A stretch of 42,007 nucleotides of DNA, taken from Alphaproteobacteria bacterium (GTDB lineage Bacteria > Pseudomonadota > Alphaproteobacteria > Caulobacterales > Aquidulcibacteraceae). The notes beneath the pieces are model-generated. The model was not told where the DNA came from and ran no database searches. It was given only the letters and a program-made list of their open reading frames with translations. The translations under genes were made by a program, and so were the position numbers. Positions 35,024-41,738 of this stretch are shown piece by piece; the stretch's first letter is position 1, and each line of letters opens with the position of its first letter. The stretch is from assembly GCA_027485915.1 (NCBI GenBank), contig JAIXQA010000072.1:1-42007 (forward strand), in the 5' to 3' direction.

Positions 35024-35989
35024 ATGGTGTCGCAAGTTGTCTCTTTGGCGCGGGTCGAATTGCTTCAAAGCCTCGCTGCGGGCGAAATTCAGCTGGCTTT
35101 TCAGCCGCAAGTAGACTTAACCACCAAGGCTATTGTCGCGTTTGAAGGTGTTGCCCGATGGCATCATCCAAAACTTGGCCAATTATCACCGGGCCTTTTC
35201 TTTAGCCTTGCAGCCAAAGAAGGTCTGATCGGGGTGATTAGCCGGACGTTGGCTGCTCAAGCGGCACGGGCTGTCCATACCTGGCGCAATCATGGTTATG
35301 GCATGGATATCGCCATCAATGTGTCGACCTCTGACGTGATGGACCCCAGTTTTGCCAGAGACTTGAATGATTGTGTGCTGAGCGAAGGTGCAAGACCCGA
35401 GTGGATGATTCTTGAGATCGACGAGGAAGAATTGGTCTGCGCCGGAAACCAAGGCTTGGCTTGCCTAGAAATTCTTGCTGGATATGGCTTCAAGATCGCG
35501 CTCGATGCCAAGGGACCACCAAGCCTTGCACTGGATAAACGTGCGCGGGTCCTGTTTTGTCAACTAAAATGCGGCGGCTCCACTATGTTGTCTGTCGCCA
35601 GTCGCCTTCACTCAGTCGGTGCCAGTGCCTTCATGCGCCGCATCCAAGCGGCACAGGCTGCCGGCATGCCTGTTGTCGCTGTTGGAGCAGAGTCGGCCAA
35701 AGCCATTCGCCAATGTTACCAAATTGGCTTTACCCGTCTGCAAGGACATTTTGTCTCCCCGCCGTTGAGCTTTCAAGCCGCTTCGGAAATGCTCTTGGAA
35801 CAACCGACGGGCTTAGACGACGCACCGGGCGAAGCCCTCGAAGCAATCGGCACCGATGAAGCGGTTCAACTTCCAGCCAATCCATTGGCAGAAGACAAAG
35901 CAGAAGCACCACCCGCCCATAGCCCATTGCAGCTTTTTAGTTTGGAAGATCTGTCCGAAGCAGACCAAGCCAGTTCCGCTGCCGCCTAG
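35024..35989 (+). CDS. EAL-domain protein, probably catalytically inactive
   Basis: The first 250 of 321 residues form an EAL domain, the fold of cyclic-di-GMP phosphodiesterases. Some key residues remain: Glu41 (the signature reads EGV, not EAL), Asn99 in AINVSTSD, Glu131 in ILEIDEEE and Asp161. Others are lost: the DDFGTG loop reads DAKGPP, the KID lysine region is replaced, and the Glu of the usual AEGVE reads Val220 (VAVGAES). It is therefore likely a c-di-GMP sensor or protein-binding module rather than an enzyme. The last 70 residues are acidic and Pro/Ala-rich, probably disordered. No GGDEF or receiver domain is fused. Its stop overlaps the stop of the second DUF2336 gene in CTAG. Confidence 0.85.
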   Translation: MVSQVVSLARVELLQSLAAGEIQLAFQPQVDLTTKAIVAFEGVARWHHPKLGQLSPGLFFSLAAKEGLIGVISRTLAAQAARAVHTWRNHGYGMDIAINVSTSDVMDPSFARDLNDCVLSEGARPEWMILEIDEEELVCAGNQGLACLEILAGYGFKIALDAKGPPSLALDKRARVLFCQLKCGGSTMLSVASRLHSVGASAFMRRIQAAQAAGMPVVAVGAESAKAIRQCYQIGFTRLQGHFVSPPLSFQAASEMLLEQPTGLDDAPGEALEAIGTDEAVQLPANPLAEDKAEAPPAHSPLQLFSLEDLSEADQASSAAA

Positions 35990-37134
35990 CCTACAGCGAC
36001 TCGCTTTTCCTCCGCTTCTTCGCGGACATAATCCAGCTTTTCGAGAAGATAATTAAGGTCTTCGTCTGGAATCGATTGGAAGCGGGTCAAAACGCGCTCA
36101 ATCATACGTTTCCGGAAACGTGTCCGGTCATCGGCTGTCCCATCAAATTCTGTCTCATGGAGAACTTCGATGGCGGCGCGGAATGCTGGATAGAGGCTCG
36201 GCGGCATATTGGCCCGCTCAAAAATAGCGCGGAGCCCCATAGTACCGCCGTCATGCACCAAGAGCCAAGCCTTGTTGTGCGCAATGCCTGCCAGCTCTGC
36301 AAACGCATACTCGACCAAACGTACTTCGCCTTGGCAAAGGGCGCGTAAGACAAAACTTGGCGTCAATCGACCGTTGAGATGCAATTGCTGTACATAGCGC
36401 TTCATGTCGGACTGAAGGCCTGCTTGCGCGATCAAGTCGATGCCTGCGCGCTCACGGGTGTTGGTAGCCAAATCAATCGCCATTTGTGGCGGCATGGCAT
36501 GCTTCTCAACCAAGCGGTCAAATAGTTCACCAGTAAGCCGCGCAGCTAGTTTTTCGGAAACAAGAACCGGCAAAATTGGACGCTCAATCATGGCTTCCTG
36601 CAGTGAACGCACACTTGGGAAGCGATCGAGGGCGCGGGTCATGCCGACCTCATTGAACGCTGCCCCGTCATTATGCAGCGCTTCTATAATGGCCCCATCA
36701 ACGCTATGTGTGCACAAGGCGGTGGTAACTATTTCAGAAAGCGTTTCCCGACGAGCAATTGCATATTGGCGTGCGGGCTCTGCCGATTCCAATATCTCAA
36801 CTAGGTCTTCATCGCTCAACACCGGGGAGCTTTCGAGCAATGGTATGGCTATGGAATCAATATCACGCGCCAATTTTGCGGCAATTTCTGGCGGAAGATT
36901 TGGTGAAGCCTTCAGGGTAACTGCCAGCGCGCGGCGAACGCGCTCAGCCGCCCCTGCAACAACGATCTGCAGGATCTGCTCGGCATACTGACGCTCTTCA
37001 TCTGTCAACGTCACCGTATCGATGCGCCGACATAGCCGATAGCATGCCAAAGCACGATCCTCATCGGTATCGCCTTTGATCAAAGCCCGAATGTCTGCTT
37101 CACTCAGATTTACGCGTAGCGTTGAAACGCCCAT
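35986..37134 (-). CDS. DUF2336 protein (second of two)
   Basis: This 382-residue helical cytoplasmic protein resembles the DUF2336 protein at 32304-33392: both have a VRxxLxxTL helix, an IAxPxL helix and a (S/C)P(V/I)L(S/N)D(D/E)xLVEx helix, but they share little outside this core and differ in their C-termini. The C-terminus here is rich in charged residues (KLDYVREEAEEKR) and could form a coiled coil. I chose ATG at 37134, with GGGAG about ten bases upstream; the frame goes eight codons further. It is divergent from the CoA-transferase gene and convergent with the EAL gene, sharing a CTAG at their stops. Function unknown. Confidence 0.8.
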   Translation of the reverse strand: MGVSTLRVNLSEADIRALIKGDTDEDRALACYRLCRRIDTVTLTDEERQYAEQILQIVVAGAAERVRRALAVTLKASPNLPPEIAAKLARDIDSIAIPLLESSPVLSDEDLVEILESAEPARQYAIARRETLSEIVTTALCTHSVDGAIIEALHNDGAAFNEVGMTRALDRFPSVRSLQEAMIERPILPVLVSEKLAARLTGELFDRLVEKHAMPPQMAIDLATNTRERAGIDLIAQAGLQSDMKRYVQQLHLNGRLTPSFVLRALCQGEVRLVEYAFAELAGIAHNKAWLLVHDGGTMGLRAIFERANMPPSLYPAFRAAIEVLHETEFDGTADDRTRFRKRMIERVLTRFQSIPDEDLNYLLEKLDYVREEAEEKRVAVG

Positions 37135-37295
37135 GACACATCGCTCCCAGAACCACATTTGCCGTGATTCGCAACACAGCTAAGGTGCGCCGTTAGGGTT
37201 AATAGCGTCTTTACACAGGTAAGCACTTGGGCTGTTGTGATGCAGGTCGAGTATATATCCTAAAATCAAAAATCAGAATCTTCAGGGGAAACACC

Positions 37296-38501
37296 ATGCT
37301 GCTCAAGGGTCTTAAAGTCATTGAATATGCCACCTATATCGCAGCACCCGGCGCAGGTGGCTTGATGGCGGATTGGGGAGCCGACGTTATTAAGATCGAG
37401 CCTCCTGGCGGCGACCCTATCCGCCGCTTCTTCGATACGATTGGCTCGGATATCGCCGAAAATCCGGTCTTTGATCTCGACAATCGCGGCAAGCGCTCCA
37501 TCATCATTGATACGGCCCAAGATGACGGGCGCGATTTAGTTCGAAAATTGGTTGCGGACGCCGATGTCTTTATCACCAATGTCCGCCCAGGTGGCTTGAC
37601 GCGCGCGGGCCTGGATTATGCTGCCCTGTCTGCCATTAATCCACGCCTCATCTATGCCAATGTTACCGGTTATGGCCTTGAAGGCCCAGATGTCGACCGT
37701 GCAGGGTTCGACGTCGCAGCCTTTTGGTCGCGCTCTGGCTGGGCACGTTTGACGGCACCAAAGGGCGTGGAGCCATTTCCAATTCGCACTGGTGTAGGTG
37801 ATCACATCTGCTCGCTGTCAACCGTCGCGGGCATTTTAGCTGCACTTCATGGCCGTCAAAGCACCGGAAAAGGCCAGCATGTCGATGCGTCATTGTTGAG
37901 AGCTGGCACCTATACTTTGGGGTCGGATATGTCGATCCAAATGCGCTTTGGACGACTGGCCTCCACTCGGCCGCGCCATGAAGCGGTCAATCCATTGGCT
38001 AATTTCTTTCAGTGCCGCGACGGTCGCTGGCTGACCCTACTACCCCGGCAAGGCACCGCCGATTGGCCTCTTTTCTGCCAAGCTCTCAGCCTTGAAGAGC
38101 TGCAGTCCGATCCCCGTTTTGCGACTTCCAAAGCCCGACGTGAGAATGGTCCTACCTTGGTTGCCTTAATGGATGAGGTCTTTGCGTCACGCGATTTCGC
38201 CGATATTGCCAAGCGACTGGATTCGCATGATTTGGTTTGGGCTCCTGTACAAAGCCCGGCTGAGACCGTTGCTGACCCACAGTTTTTGGCGGCTGGCGGC
38301 ATGACTCACATTGAGGATGGCGAAGGTGGTACAAAAGCCTCTCCTTCAGGCCCCATCCGCTTCCCCGGCATCCCAGAGGCGACTAAACGCCCTGTGCCAA
38401 CTCCGGGAAAGGATGCCCGCGCGGTATTAGCTGAGGCTGGGTTTACTCAGGACGAAATCGAGGCTCTTCTGGCAAAAAACACCGTCGCCGAAAAACTCTA
38501 G
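37296..38501 (+). CDS. Family III CoA-transferase (CaiB/BaiF)
   Basis: This family moves coenzyme A between organic acids through an aspartyl-CoA intermediate; relatives include formyl-CoA transferase and alpha-methylacyl-CoA racemase. The 401-residue protein starts with the typical LKVIEYATYIAAPGAGGLMADWGADVIKIE region (the first family block) and has NVTGYG. The expected catalytic aspartate is Asp169 in TGVGDH, and GKGQHVDASLL follows. Substrate cannot be read from sequence. ATG at 37296 has AGGGGA about eight bases upstream; the open frame to 37227 is not needed. It is convergent with the small membrane protein gene, their stops overlapping in CTAG. Confidence 0.9.
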   Translation: MLLKGLKVIEYATYIAAPGAGGLMADWGADVIKIEPPGGDPIRRFFDTIGSDIAENPVFDLDNRGKRSIIIDTAQDDGRDLVRKLVADADVFITNVRPGGLTRAGLDYAALSAINPRLIYANVTGYGLEGPDVDRAGFDVAAFWSRSGWARLTAPKGVEPFPIRTGVGDHICSLSTVAGILAALHGRQSTGKGQHVDASLLRAGTYTLGSDMSIQMRFGRLASTRPRHEAVNPLANFFQCRDGRWLTLLPRQGTADWPLFCQALSLEELQSDPRFATSKARRENGPTLVALMDEVFASRDFADIAKRLDSHDLVWAPVQSPAETVADPQFLAAGGMTHIEDGEGGTKASPSGPIRFPGIPEATKRPVPTPGKDARAVLAEAGFTQDEIEALLAKNTVAEKL

Positions 38502-38935
38502 GCCCGTTCATGGGCCGGCCACCATAATGGGCCAACGGCGATCAAGAGTACAAATATATTGAAGACTGCATTGGATGGATTGCCCGAGGCAATCGACCCT
38601 GCGCTGTCGAGGCAAAACCAGGTTAGGATACTGGCTAGAGCAGTGCGTCGAACCGCCTCTGGCGCAAGATCATAAACCCATGTCGACAAACACCAAATCA
38701 TGACGCCCCAGCCGGCCAAAAATCCACCTGTCAGGGCCGAAAGAAAACGTGTGTCGGGTGATGCAAACGTCGTTGCCCCATCCAACGGCCAACTGAGTAG
38801 GTCTAAGGTCCAACGGGCGGGTTCGAGGGTAGGCGCCATGGTGCCGAGAAAAAAGACCGGACCAAATGAGCCGACCACAACGGCGGTTACTTTCAGCCAG
38901 ACCTTATGTAAGGGTTGGCTCATGGCCAAATTCAT
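38498..38935 (-). CDS. Four-helix membrane protein (paralogue of the one at 40374)
   Basis: The 145-residue protein has about four hydrophobic segments: near residues 12-32, 64-85, 93-112 and 120-137. Conserved features are GWGVMIWCLSTWV, WFCLDSAGSIASG and a following Asn-rich turn. The same arrangement occurs in the protein at 40374-40799 (GWAVMIYGV, WYVIDGICSIATG), so the two are paralogues. No function is known to me. ATG at 38935 overlaps the stop of the epoxide-hydrolase-family gene as ATGA; a GTG upstream and an ATG four codons downstream are alternatives. Confidence 0.75.
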   Translation of the reverse strand: MNLAMSQPLHKVWLKVTAVVVGSFGPVFFLGTMAPTLEPARWTLDLLSWPLDGATTFASPDTRFLSALTGGFLAGWGVMIWCLSTWVYDLAPEAVRRTALASILTWFCLDSAGSIASGNPSNAVFNIFVLLIAVGPLWWPAHERA

Positions 38936-39321
38936 CCAGTTGGCCACTGTGCTAGAATGGTCGCTGCATCAAAATAGTCTCGCCAATAAGTGATGAGGCC
39001 ATCCTTGACTTCAAATACACCGGTCACTGGCAATTCGACCCACTTATCTTTAAGACGATGGCGATCCAGACGTTCCAAGAAGACAATCTCACCGCTGCCA
39101 GACTCGCGCAGGATTTTGAATTCATTCTCGACTGTGGGCGAGAAAAAAGGTTCCAGCACAGCTCGAATGCCTTGTGGACCGATCACCTCCCCAATGGGCG
39201 GTGGGTTGATGTAGACACATGTGGGAGACACCAAGGCCAATGCCGTGTCATAGTCCAATGGTTCCATTGCCTTCAAAAAGCGGCGGGTGATTTCGAGGGC
39301 TTCGTTGGCGGTATTGGTCAT
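38932..39321 (-). CDS. Limonene-1,2-epoxide hydrolase family protein
   Basis: The 129-residue protein has the cone-shaped SnoaL/LEH fold. The residues that make limonene-1,2-epoxide hydrolase active are all present in order: Tyr37 and Asn39 in VYINP, Arg84 and Asp86 in ERLD, and Asp115 in WRDYFD, matching Tyr53, Asn55, Arg99, Asp101 and Asp132 of the Rhodococcus enzyme. So it could hydrate an epoxide rather than be an inert SnoaL-like protein. It is shorter at the N-terminus than the Rhodococcus enzyme (149 residues). It is co-translated with the small membrane protein downstream and encoded next to the XRE regulator. The natural substrate is unknown. Confidence 0.8.
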   Translation of the reverse strand: MTNTANEALEITRRFLKAMEPLDYDTALALVSPTCVYINPPPIGEVIGPQGIRAVLEPFFSPTVENEFKILRESGSGEIVFLERLDRHRLKDKWVELPVTGVFEVKDGLITYWRDYFDAATILAQWPTG

Positions 39322-39404
39322 CTATCTCTCCCCATCTTAAGTTTGACGAGATTGTCCTCTTTTGAAAGCCGGCGCAATTACGTCTCGGGTTATTGCCCGC
39401 TGGT

Positions 39405-40226
39405 TTAGGTAGCAGCTCGGAATAAGGCTTCTGTCTCGGGGTCCGCTGGAAAAAGAGTTTCTAAGCGCAGCTCGTCCGCCGTAATGTCTTGGGCAGTCCC
39501 AAATGTTGCCACCACCGCGAACATGGAGACCTTGAGGCCCTGGACCTCCATATTGAAGGGTATAACCGGCACCAGTGACGCTTCTGCGGCAGACCAGAGA
39601 ATATGCGGGTCCTGAAAGGGTGCGAGCTCATCGAGCACAGCTTTCATCTCCATCCCGGCTAAAGCTTCGGCTTCGCGTTGAGCGCGCTGCCACATCAGGG
39701 GGCCAACGGCTGCCCAATTAGTAACAAAGGGGCGGATCCCATTCGGGTGAAAAAAAAGACGCATCAAGTTGCGTCCCTCACCGCCAACACGGCTCCAAAT
39801 ATCATCGCCTAACATTGCCCCTAACTGATCAAAGGCCCGATTAGACAGTCGCACATTCCAAGCGCGATCTAAGGCGATGGCCGGGAAGGGCTCGTGCGCT
39901 GATAACATCATCCGGATAGCCGACATGACTTGGCTCATTTGGGGATCATCCAAATTGCGGGTTTTGAATATCGGTGCAAAACCTGCTGCTGTCAGCCACG
40001 CATTGCGTTCACGTAACGGAACCTCCAATGTCTCGCTGAGCTGCAGGATCATATTGCGGCTAGGGTTGGCGCGTCGCGATTCCAAAAAGCTGACATGGCG
40101 CTGTGAGACACCAGACATAAGTGCGAGATCCAATTGGGATAAACGCCGCTTTTGACGCCAATCCCGCAATAGTTTTGCAAAACTCCCGTCCGTTTCAGCT
40201 GGCCCGGTATGGACATACATTGTCAT
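39405..40226 (-). CDS. XRE-family regulator with MmyB-like ligand-binding domain
   Basis: Residues about 16-75 form an XRE helix-turn-helix (LLRDWRQKRRLSQLDLALMSG, then VSQRHVSFLESRR). Residues about 105-265 match the MmyB-like transcription-regulator ligand-binding domain, recognised by AIALDRAWNVRLSNRAFDQL and LMRLFFHPNGIRPFVTNW. Such regulators bind a small hydrophobic ligand, and genes for oxidoreductases or hydrolases often lie beside them. Here it sits between the LEH-family and haloalkane-dehalogenase units, making it the best candidate controller of both. ATG at 40226 has GGGAGG about seven bases upstream; ATG two codons later is also possible. Confidence 0.9.
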   Translation of the reverse strand: MTMYVHTGPAETDGSFAKLLRDWRQKRRLSQLDLALMSGVSQRHVSFLESRRANPSRNMILQLSETLEVPLRERNAWLTAAGFAPIFKTRNLDDPQMSQVMSAIRMMLSAHEPFPAIALDRAWNVRLSNRAFDQLGAMLGDDIWSRVGGEGRNLMRLFFHPNGIRPFVTNWAAVGPLMWQRAQREAEALAGMEMKAVLDELAPFQDPHILWSAAEASLVPVIPFNMEVQGLKVSMFAVVATFGTAQDITADELRLETLFPADPETEALFRAAT

Positions 40227-40341
40227 AGATTGCCTCCCACTGTGAAGCGGAACCTGACATGCCCCCGCAGGCAGTTCAATGACGTGCGAAGTAATTGCGA
40301 AGACGCCGGGGCGCGGCCATGCTCGCCTAAGTTGGGAGGGC

Positions 40342-40354
40342 CTAGGGCCCCTAG
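40342..40354. promoter_or_regulatory. 13-bp palindrome before the second membrane protein gene
   Basis: CTAGGG and CCCTAG flank a single C, about 20 bases before the start at 40374 and just ahead of its ribosome binding site. It lies in the gap between the divergent XRE regulator and its right-hand neighbour, so it may be an operator. I did not find an identical site before the epoxide-hydrolase gene. Confidence 0.3.
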
Positions 40355-40373
40355 AACAATCAAGGAGTCAAGA

Positions 40374-40799
40374 ATGTCGGCTTTTTGGCGTGCTTATTTT
40401 GGGTTATTTTGTGTCTCGCTGGTCTTGTTCGGTGCCGTTCTAAGTGCCGGTGCGTTTGCACCGACCAGCGGCCCGGTAACCCTCTTATTGTCCATCTTAT
40501 CTGGCGGCGCAGCAGCTGACTTCACCCCTGCCTTGCGCTTCTCTTTGGGCTTAATGGGGGCAATTACAATTGGCTGGGCCGTCATGATTTATGGGGTCAT
40601 GCGCGTTGCCTTCACACAGGGCATTCAAGCGCGCCCATTGTGGGATGCCATCACGGCTGGCTTGATGAGTTGGTATGTAATTGACGGGATCTGCTCTATC
40701 GCAACAGGTTTTGCTCTCAACATCATTCCCAACACTGCTTTAGGGGCCATGTATTTGATTGGCCTTACCCAAAGCGGCGCCCTAAAGACCATTCGCTAA
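40374..40799 (+). CDS. Four-helix membrane protein (paralogue of the one at 38498)
   Basis: This 141-residue protein has about four membrane segments (near residues 7-29, 55-78, 93-112 and 117-135). GWAVMIYGV and WYVIDGICSIATG match the equivalent parts of the minus-strand protein at 38498-38935, so they are paralogues from an old duplication. ATG at 40374 has AAGGAG seven bases before it. The haloalkane dehalogenase gene follows after 21 bases, so the two are likely co-expressed. The function is unknown; export of a product or chloride handling are guesses without sequence support. Confidence 0.75.
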   Translation: MSAFWRAYFGLFCVSLVLFGAVLSAGAFAPTSGPVTLLLSILSGGAAADFTPALRFSLGLMGAITIGWAVMIYGVMRVAFTQGIQARPLWDAITAGLMSWYVIDGICSIATGFALNIIPNTALGAMYLIGLTQSGALKTIR

Positions 40800-40820
40800 T
40801 TCAAAAGGACAGGACGAAAC

Positions 40821-41738
40821 ATGGACGCGCTTCGAACACCAGACGACCGCTTTCAAGTTCTTCCCGATTTTCGCTATGTGCCTCATTACATGAGCGACCT
40901 ACCCGGTTATGAGGGCCTACGTGCAGCCTATTTGGATGAAGGACCTGCTAACGCCGAACAAGTCTTTCTATGTCTTCATGGTCAGCCAACTTGGAGCTAT
41001 CTTTATCGAAAGATGATCCCTGTATTTGTCGCCTCTGGTGGGCGCGTTATCGCCCCTGATCTTTTTGGCTTTGGGCGATCCGATAAGCCTGTTGACGAAG
41101 AGCGGTACGGATTTGACTTTCATCGCAATTACCTAATCGCACTCGTAGAGCGACTTGATCTGAAAAATGTCACGCTTGTTGTCCAAGATTGGGGCGGGCT
41201 GATCGGCCTCACGTTGCCGGTTAATCAACCCATTTCGGCGCGTATCAATCGCCTCATTATTATGAATACAACTTTGGCAACTGGCCACTCGCCAAGCGAC
41301 GGCTTTTTGGCTTGGCGCGCCTATTCGGGGGCCAGGCCCAACTTGGCCATAGGTGCTCTCATGCACCGCTCGACGCCGCATTTGAGTGCAGAAGAGGCAG
41401 CAGCCTATGACGCCCCCTTCCCCAATACAGATTTTAAAGCCGGGGTTCGTGCCTTCCCCAAGCGCGTCATGACCGACCCGGGCATGGAGGGTGTGGATAT
41501 ATCCCTCGCTGCGAGGACTTTCTGGGCCGAACATTGGCGTGGTCAAAGCTTCATGGCTTGGGGCGCAGCAGATCCGGTCTTTGGTCTGGAAATCATGGAA
41601 GACATGCATCAATTGATCCGGGGCTGCCCAGCACCACTGATCCTTCGTGAGGGTGGGCATTTCGTGCAAGAGTGGGGCGAAGAAATTGCCCAAGCTGCGC
41701 TAAAGAGCTTTGCAGCTGGTCTTGGGCGCGCAGGCTAA
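40821..41738 (+). CDS. Haloalkane dehalogenase, HLD-I type (DhlA-like)
   Basis: This alpha/beta hydrolase should split carbon-halogen bonds with water. At 305 residues it aligns nearly end to end with Xanthobacter DhlA (310 residues), which begins with the similar NAIRTPD. The complete HLD-I pentad is visible: nucleophile Asp123 in VVQDWGG, halide-binding Trp124 and Trp165 (GFLAWRA), acid Asp251 (GAADPVFG) and base His280 (GGHFVQEWG). The oxyanion loop reads HGQPTW, with Gln in place of DhlA Glu56, as in other HLD-I members. Subtle changes could give another activity such as epoxide hydrolysis, but both Trp residues argue for dehalogenation. It follows the small membrane protein gene after 21 bases. 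Confidence 0.9.
   Translation: MDALRTPDDRFQVLPDFRYVPHYMSDLPGYEGLRAAYLDEGPANAEQVFLCLHGQPTWSYLYRKMIPVFVASGGRVIAPDLFGFGRSDKPVDEERYGFDFHRNYLIALVERLDLKNVTLVVQDWGGLIGLTLPVNQPISARINRLIIMNTTLATGHSPSDGFLAWRAYSGARPNLAIGALMHRSTPHLSAEEAAAYDAPFPNTDFKAGVRAFPKRVMTDPGMEGVDISLAARTFWAEHWRGQSFMAWGAADPVFGLEIMEDMHQLIRGCPAPLILREGGHFVQEWGEEIAQAALKSFAAGLGRAG

Follow-up and report, generated by a model that had tools for sequence, protein, structure and literature searches.

Organization of the Locus

The stretch of DNA analysed here, referred to as the window, is the entire contig JAIXQA010000072.1 (42,007 bp) of a 3.31-Mb genome in 82 contigs, and it carries a cassette of two predicted enzymes, a limonene-1,2-epoxide hydrolase (LEH) family protein and a haloalkane dehalogenase (HLD), two membrane proteins of one family (M1 and M2) and a single MmyB-type regulator (Table 1). 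On the plus strand, the order is CoA-transferase (+), M1 (-), LEH (-), regulator (-), M2 (+) and HLD (+). The M1 and LEH genes overlap by 16 bp, and the regulator and M2 genes are divergent across a gap of 147 bp.

Table 1. Genes and candidate operators of the cassette and its neighbours, in window coordinates.
Feature	Position	Strand	Remarks
M1	38498..38947	-	149-aa membrane protein, GTG start; separate tree clade
LEH-family epoxide hydrolase (predicted)	38932..39321	-	129 aa; PF07858; Y37, N39, R84, D86, D115
Operator 2 (candidate): CAATTACGTCTCGGGTTATTG	39375..39395	+	54-74 bp upstream of LEH start; 0 mismatches
Regulator, XRE helix-turn-helix (HTH) and MmyB-like ligand-binding domain	39405..40226	-	273 aa; PF01381 (HTH_3) and PF17765 (MLTR_LBD), over cut-off
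Operator 1 (candidate): CAATTACTTCGCACGTCATTG	40277..40297	-	in regulator/M2 gap; 0 mismatches
M2	40374..40799	+	141-aa helical membrane protein, M1 paralogue
DhlA-like HLD	40821..41738	+	305 aa; PRK00870; starts 21 bp after M2; D123, W124, W165, D251, H280
CoA-transferase gene (CaiB-type)	37299-38501	+	convergent with M1; ends overlap by 4 bp
SpbR-family protein (DUF2336)	35986-37158		over NCBIfam cut-off; adjoins EAL-domain gene

The LEH matches PF07858 with an E-value of 2.1e-38 (131.8 bits against a cut-off of 24), and its five residues given in Table 1 align with active-site positions of solved LEHs and are invariant in all eight copies from the genus (Aquidulcibacter/Ca. Phycosocius). 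Tyr, Asn, Arg, Asp and Asp are presumably the active-site set of this family. The HLD exceeds the NCBIfam haloalkane dehalogenase cut-off (325.8 against 265 bits), and its best PDB matches, 2xt0 and DhlA (1b6g), are aligned nearly end to end; in these alignments, D123, W124, W165, D251 and H280 correspond to the DhlA pentad, which we take to be a nucleophile Asp, a His, an Asp and two halide-binding Trp residues. The position of DhlA Glu56 is occupied by Gln55 (codon 55, window 40983-40985), and Gln is found in eight of eight genus copies, two of them partial; Glu at this position was not treated as a strict criterion of haloalkane dehalogenase subfamily I. M1 and M2 are homologous, with 31% identity over 105 aa (E 4e-10).

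A first-pass annotation of this DNA had given the same five-gene layout, with which the open reading frame positions agree, and the alignments bear out its statements that the LEH has all five active-site residues, that the HLD has the full DhlA catalytic pentad, and that M1 and M2 are paralogous membrane proteins. It had also described the cassette as a mirror image; the arrangement around one regulator stands, while the reading of the two arms as mirror duplicates was given up, M1 and M2 apparently being separate lineages.

A Palindrome Shared by Both Intergenic Regions

Alignment of the two intergenic regions from eight genomes revealed one conserved block in each, and both blocks hold the same 21-bp palindrome, CAATNAC-N7-GTNATTG, with the wider consensus CCATKACCTC-N-GAGGTAATTGC. 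These two copies, operators 1 and 2, are the only places in the window with fewer than three mismatches. Throughout the 3.31-Mb genome, the symmetric pattern is found at exactly two places, both in the cassette, while the nine genus genomes together have 15 places, 13 in the cassette and two stray, with a reversed-pattern control giving none in all nine. A relaxed pattern adds one place in the same genome (C65:10434), just before the gene of a third, unlinked family member, M3; this site is present in all five genus copies tested, with one or two mismatches, and begins 71-78 bp before the start. Among 60 genomes of the family, the relaxed pattern occurs at 35 places, assigned by coordinates, and its reversed control at none. 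Twenty of these places belong to the genus (13 in the cassette, seven before M3), and the other 15 lie before other M genes (11), before an MmyB-like gene (one) or are unexplained (three).

At the family level, 20 of 21 non-genus M genes were examined for their neighbours, and in 15 cases an MmyB gene is transcribed divergently from the M gene, no more than about 1.5 kb away. The 21st gene (G010:C41) has MmyB as well, and none of the 20 stands beside LEH or HLD. An operator with at most two mismatches is present in 27 of 28 distinct non-genus gaps between MmyB and M genes (28 of 31 were used, near-duplicates being dropped), compared with 0.5% per gap in shuffled sequences. Moreover, the exact core ATTACCTNNNAGGTAATTG was found at seven places in six of 289 genomes across the class, each with an MmyB-like match beside it, which is cut by a contig end at L207. 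The match is a mere remnant at L202 (G086), where, as read from translations, the operator fronts the gene of a small membrane protein and has a SnoaL-like gene close by. Since the exact core is also found before other MmyB-linked genes, the operator would mark a regulator clade and not M or LEH alone, and M appears to be its commonest target among the places examined, although not the sole one.

The cassette regulator is the sole PF17765 protein found in its own genome (one match in G000 at E 1e-5) and likewise in seven of the eight genus genomes having one, while G006 has two; this supports the binding predicted for this regulator. The accessible part of Xu et al. (2012, PMC3406030) states that 15 of 16 MmyB-type regulators of Streptomyces coelicolor share their upstream region with a divergent target, and that a fatty acid was present in the crystals of MltR, whose natural ligand those authors call unknown. 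The MltR structure is not among the three phmmer matches of the cassette regulator.

The Membrane Protein Family

M1 and M2 have no Pfam or NCBIfam match at E 0.1, and 17 members of the family reached a best E of 0.05 against Pfam, which was taken as noise, so no function was assigned from these weak matches. The model of M2 is a helical bundle (pLDDT 94.1, pTM 0.84) with helices at residues 3-25, 33-42, 52-110 and 114-133, and we read it as a probable protein of four transmembrane helices. A search of the PDB with this model gave no fold match at E 0.001 or better, and an assignment of function by fold was dropped. The residues G62, G67, W68, W100, D104, S108, N116 and N120 (M2 numbering) are invariant in 38 members.

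M1 is 59-83% identical to genes of Bacteroidota, Ignavibacteriota, Chloroflexota and Alphaproteobacteria (the names of higher taxonomic groups here being inferred) and only about 30% identical to M2. In a tree in which 12 of 37 inner branches are starred and some branches are long, M1 and M2 fall into separate clades; they are, as far as these comparisons reach, old separate lineages. Local duplication of a membrane protein-enzyme unit was rejected because of the separate clades, and the idea of M1 having been added in this genus was dropped because a locus of another family, L225, has M1 beside LEH. M1-type genes (59-78%) were observed in Bacteroidota, Ignavibacteriota and Chloroflexota (L116, L118, L119, L120, L122, L126, L130), probably pointing to horizontal spread. 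Those at L122 and L126 stand beside TetR-like genes, as read from translations.

In the wider survey, 219 M places were reduced to 90 distinct genes, 21 in the genus and 69 outside it, matches under 180 bp being excluded. Among the 69, an MmyB gene lies within 2 kb of 32, and 41 have an operator at two mismatches or fewer. LEH is nearby in five and HLD in none, leaving 64 near neither enzyme (within 2 kb, although seven of the 69 have one flank shorter than 600 bp); four of the five were found via the LEH search, and the rate would otherwise be 1/65.

The Epoxide Hydrolase beyond the Genus

At the order level, LEH homologues occur in 55 of 299 genomes, and the 20 close homologues considered here are every listed non-genus place with at least 50% identity. 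MmyB or M is nearby in seven (L225, L227, L230, L232, L233, L234, L235), M being directly beside LEH in four and across the regulator gene in one. At L225, M1 (75%) and LEH (74%) are divergent around a perfect operator, while at L232-L234 LEH lies directly behind an M gene that bears the operator, and at L235 the operator lies farther upstream, beside MmyB. These loci overturned a view formed at the family level, in which LEH had no link to M or MmyB outside the genus. In addition, ten of the 20 have an operator with at most three mismatches in the 200 bp upstream, compared with 2.8% for shuffled sequences, and these operators begin 59-103 bp ahead of the gene. At least five LEH genes (L226, L231, L237, L238, L240) have their own upstream site although the stretch examined contains no homologue of M1-M3 or MmyB. 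None of 14 distant LEH homologues (30-43% identity) has an operator. The locus L230 (G393) reads M2, operator, MmyB, operator, LEH, each site having one mismatch. The 18 kb examined there contain neither M1 nor HLD, and this arrangement may be an older form of the cassette.

The Haloalkane Dehalogenase beyond the Genus

Of the 51 family genomes outside the genus, 14 have HLD homologues with 54-63% identity. We examined 22 of 40 non-genus HLD places, including those from all 14 genomes and excluding the genus fragment L059. No M1-, M2-, LEH- or MmyB-like gene lies beside any of the 22 (flanks up to 1.5 kb), and none has an operator at two mismatches or fewer within 250 bp upstream, two having one at three mismatches. 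HLD was accordingly rejected as a regular regulon member, and because of the missing linkage and operator at these loci it is best read as a genus-level recruit, presumably carried by the M2 promoter. The same genome has a second HLD-like gene (G000:C7:62237-63079, 41% identity), and the seven further genus genomes with the cassette carry counterparts of 40-43% identity; this gene was not among the operator places of the genome scans.

Conservation in the Genus

The cassette is real and its layout is conserved in the genus. It is found in eight of nine genus genomes, six of which have all five genes (G000, G001, G003, G005, G006, G007; a contig end cuts HLD in G006 and G007). G004 and G002 keep LEH, HLD and the regulator and lack M1, and in G002 M2 is a 66-codon frame (L032:7607-7744). 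This M2 was apparently shortened by an in-frame internal deletion, and the downstream HLD and both operators remain. Median pairwise dN/dS lies between 0.02 and 0.08 for all five genes, which, as dS is saturated, indicates purifying selection and nothing more. At the thresholds used, no regulator-domain, LEH, HLD, M or operator match was found in G008, the smallest genus genome (2.5 Mb), where the CoA-transferase gene is broken and SpbR intact (L208, L209); since any M match is missing, the unlinked M3 is absent together with the cassette. SpbR adjoins the cassette in all genus loci that extend that far. The accessible part of a 2023 paper (PMC10008586) places Phycosocius near Aquidulcibacter and links it to blooms in fresh water.

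A Probable One-Regulator Regulon and Its Alternatives

The cassette is, in our view, probably the principal site of a regulon under one regulator, in which a palindrome-bound MmyB-like regulator would govern M and LEH as members widely shared among related genera and families, HLD having joined in this genus. The locus is better explained in this way than as two enzyme-partner units. At the level of sequence, the genes, the operators and their near-private distribution, the conservation across genera and the joint absence from one reduced genome argue for such a regulon. The first-pass annotation had one regulator serving both arms and named 40227-40373 and 39322-39404 as regions for its binding; each was found to hold one conserved copy of the palindrome, which favours that proposal. 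In the mechanism envisaged, the regulator would recognise the palindrome as a dimer, operator 1 would act on both the M2-HLD operon and the gene of the regulator itself, operator 2 on the LEH-M1 operon, and the third copy, elsewhere in the genome, on M3. By analogy with MltR, the PAS-like domain may sense an amphipathic, lipid-like effector; LEH would then remove reactive lipophilic epoxides and HLD halides, with the M proteins presumably acting in the membrane. The regulator may act either as a repressor or as an activator.

Several observations weigh against this regulon. The sequences that gave the operator pattern come from this genus itself, and the gaps were picked because MmyB and M flank them. 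At three mismatches, the ten matches in the window are at chance level (mean 5.6; 10 of 100 shuffles reach ten), so that weak matches prove nothing. Within the 220 bp scanned, 28 of the 69 non-genus M genes have no site at two mismatches or fewer; all six Bacteroidota M1-type genes are among them, as is L109, whose site lies farther upstream. Only two of the seven exact-core places are M-linked, the others fronting other MmyB-linked genes, and six of the 20 close LEH homologues (L228, L229, L236, L242-L244) have neither a site (at most three mismatches, 200 bp) nor an adjacent MmyB or M. Most non-genus MmyB/M pairs have regulators just 32-41% identical to that of the cassette. The lipid ligand is a hint from one distant homologue, MltR, the role given to M is a guess for a protein with neither a family nor a PDB fold match, and binding, expression and enzyme activity are all predicted.

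Among the alternatives, HLD might be a passenger, inserted after M2 and sharing its transcript only by chance, with no functional link to LEH, while M and LEH are real members. The 22 unlinked HLD homologues, operator-free but for the two sites at three mismatches, would fit this, as would the G393 cassette, which has no HLD in 18 kb; however, HLD is kept in eight of eight cassette-bearing genus genomes (two cut by contig ends), even in G002 lacking most of M2, and its median dN/dS is 0.072, with dS saturated, so that we regard a passenger as unlikely. An even narrower regulon, in which the regulator controls M genes only, LEH being a mere neighbour and the palindrome at 39375 a relic, draws on the M genes that explain 18 of the 35 family operator places besides the cassette. 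It appears very improbable, as operator 2, which lies between the regulator and LEH genes, shows conservation in the genus, and ten of 20 close LEH homologues bear their own upstream site, at least five of them with no M1-M3 or MmyB homologue in the stretch examined.

The first-pass annotation had instead viewed M1 and M2 as dedicated partners of LEH and HLD, that is, as membrane-bound enzyme-partner modules for linked halogenated and epoxide substrates, and this we hold to be quite unlikely. M1 overlaps LEH, M2 directly precedes HLD, and the neighbourhood of M and LEH recurs at five loci (next door in four of the 20 close LEH homologues, with M1 beside LEH at L225, and across the regulator in one), which lends the proposal partial support; its dehalogenase half found no support, with none of the 69 non-genus M genes near HLD and none of the 22 non-genus HLD loci linked to M. 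Furthermore, G002 and G004 keep both enzymes without M1, G002 also without most of M2, and neither enzyme accompanies M3 or 64 of the 69 non-genus M genes, an outcome which the annotation itself had named as counting against the pairing. The chemical relay between the enzymes is likewise incomplete. Hydrolysis of a vicinal dihalide yields a halohydrin, and in the published chain, according to the accessible part of PMC5539299, a haloalcohol dehalogenase precedes the epoxide hydrolase. The relay would need such a halohydrin dehalogenase, and none is present among the six genes that were scanned, the first being the CoA transferase and the last HLD, no search for it having covered other parts of the genome. 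More likely than a relay, in our view, is that LEH and HLD act in parallel, each on its own class of reactive lipophile.

Returning to the regulon, its biological role may be pictured further, although what follows is a tentative and rather doubtful extension. Aquidulcibacter and Phycosocius are freshwater bacteria associated with algae and cyanobacteria. The MmyB regulator, M and LEH might form an undescribed lipid-epoxide response of Alphaproteobacteria, in which a lipophilic effector bound in the PAS-like domain induces LEH and the M proteins, and these jointly clear or export reactive lipids at the membrane, Aquidulcibacter/Phycosocius having added a dehalogenase against halogenated lipophiles of their hosts. 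The retention of LEH and HLD genes by many bacteria with no evident exposure to pollutants still calls, to our knowledge, for an explanation. A defined operator with a single regulator makes this question testable, since the inducer of the regulon would reveal the natural substrate class, and it also provides a genomic handle on a Pfam-less membrane family (69 distinct non-genus genes) and on the operator of an MmyB-type clade. The enzyme families and the regulator family are already known, while what is new to us is the operator, its tie to the M family and the way in which LEH and HLD were recruited. Literature searches covering titles and abstract openings, but not subscription papers, returned no description of the cassette or regulon; the four operator strings are absent from the main text of PMC12565409, which treats XRE motifs, and the main text of PMC10008586 contains neither 'dehalogenase' nor 'epoxide'.

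Comparison with Known Systems

The cassette LEH resembles the limonene-1,2-epoxide hydrolase family (PF07858; PDB 5aih, 5aii, 2bng, 1nww) in fold family, size and the five active-site residues, but its best PDB match reaches just 53.5 bits, and no terpene gene is present among the cassette genes scanned. The HLD shares with haloalkane dehalogenase subfamily I (DhlA 1b6g; 2xt0) the D-W-W-D-H pentad, the profile and a near full-length alignment, whereas it has Gln for Glu56 and follows a membrane-protein gene near an MmyB-type regulator. The pairing of both activities also recalls the DhaA-HheC-EchA trichloropropane pathway, whose EchA we take to have the alpha/beta fold. In the accessible part of its description (PMC5539299), that pathway, too, combines haloalkane dehalogenase and epoxide hydrolase; unlike the cassette, it is engineered and uses the haloalcohol dehalogenase HheC together with EchA, neither of which was seen here. 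As far as the accessible part of Xu et al. (PMC3406030) describes the MmyB/MltR regulators, the cassette regulator agrees with them in combining an XRE HTH with a PAS-like MLTR_LBD and in facing a divergent target across a short gap. Their targets in actinomycetes are SDR/MDR and antibiotic genes, whereas those proposed here are an unnamed membrane family and LEH, and the cassette regulator further differs in being tied to a 21-bp candidate operator at several loci per genome.

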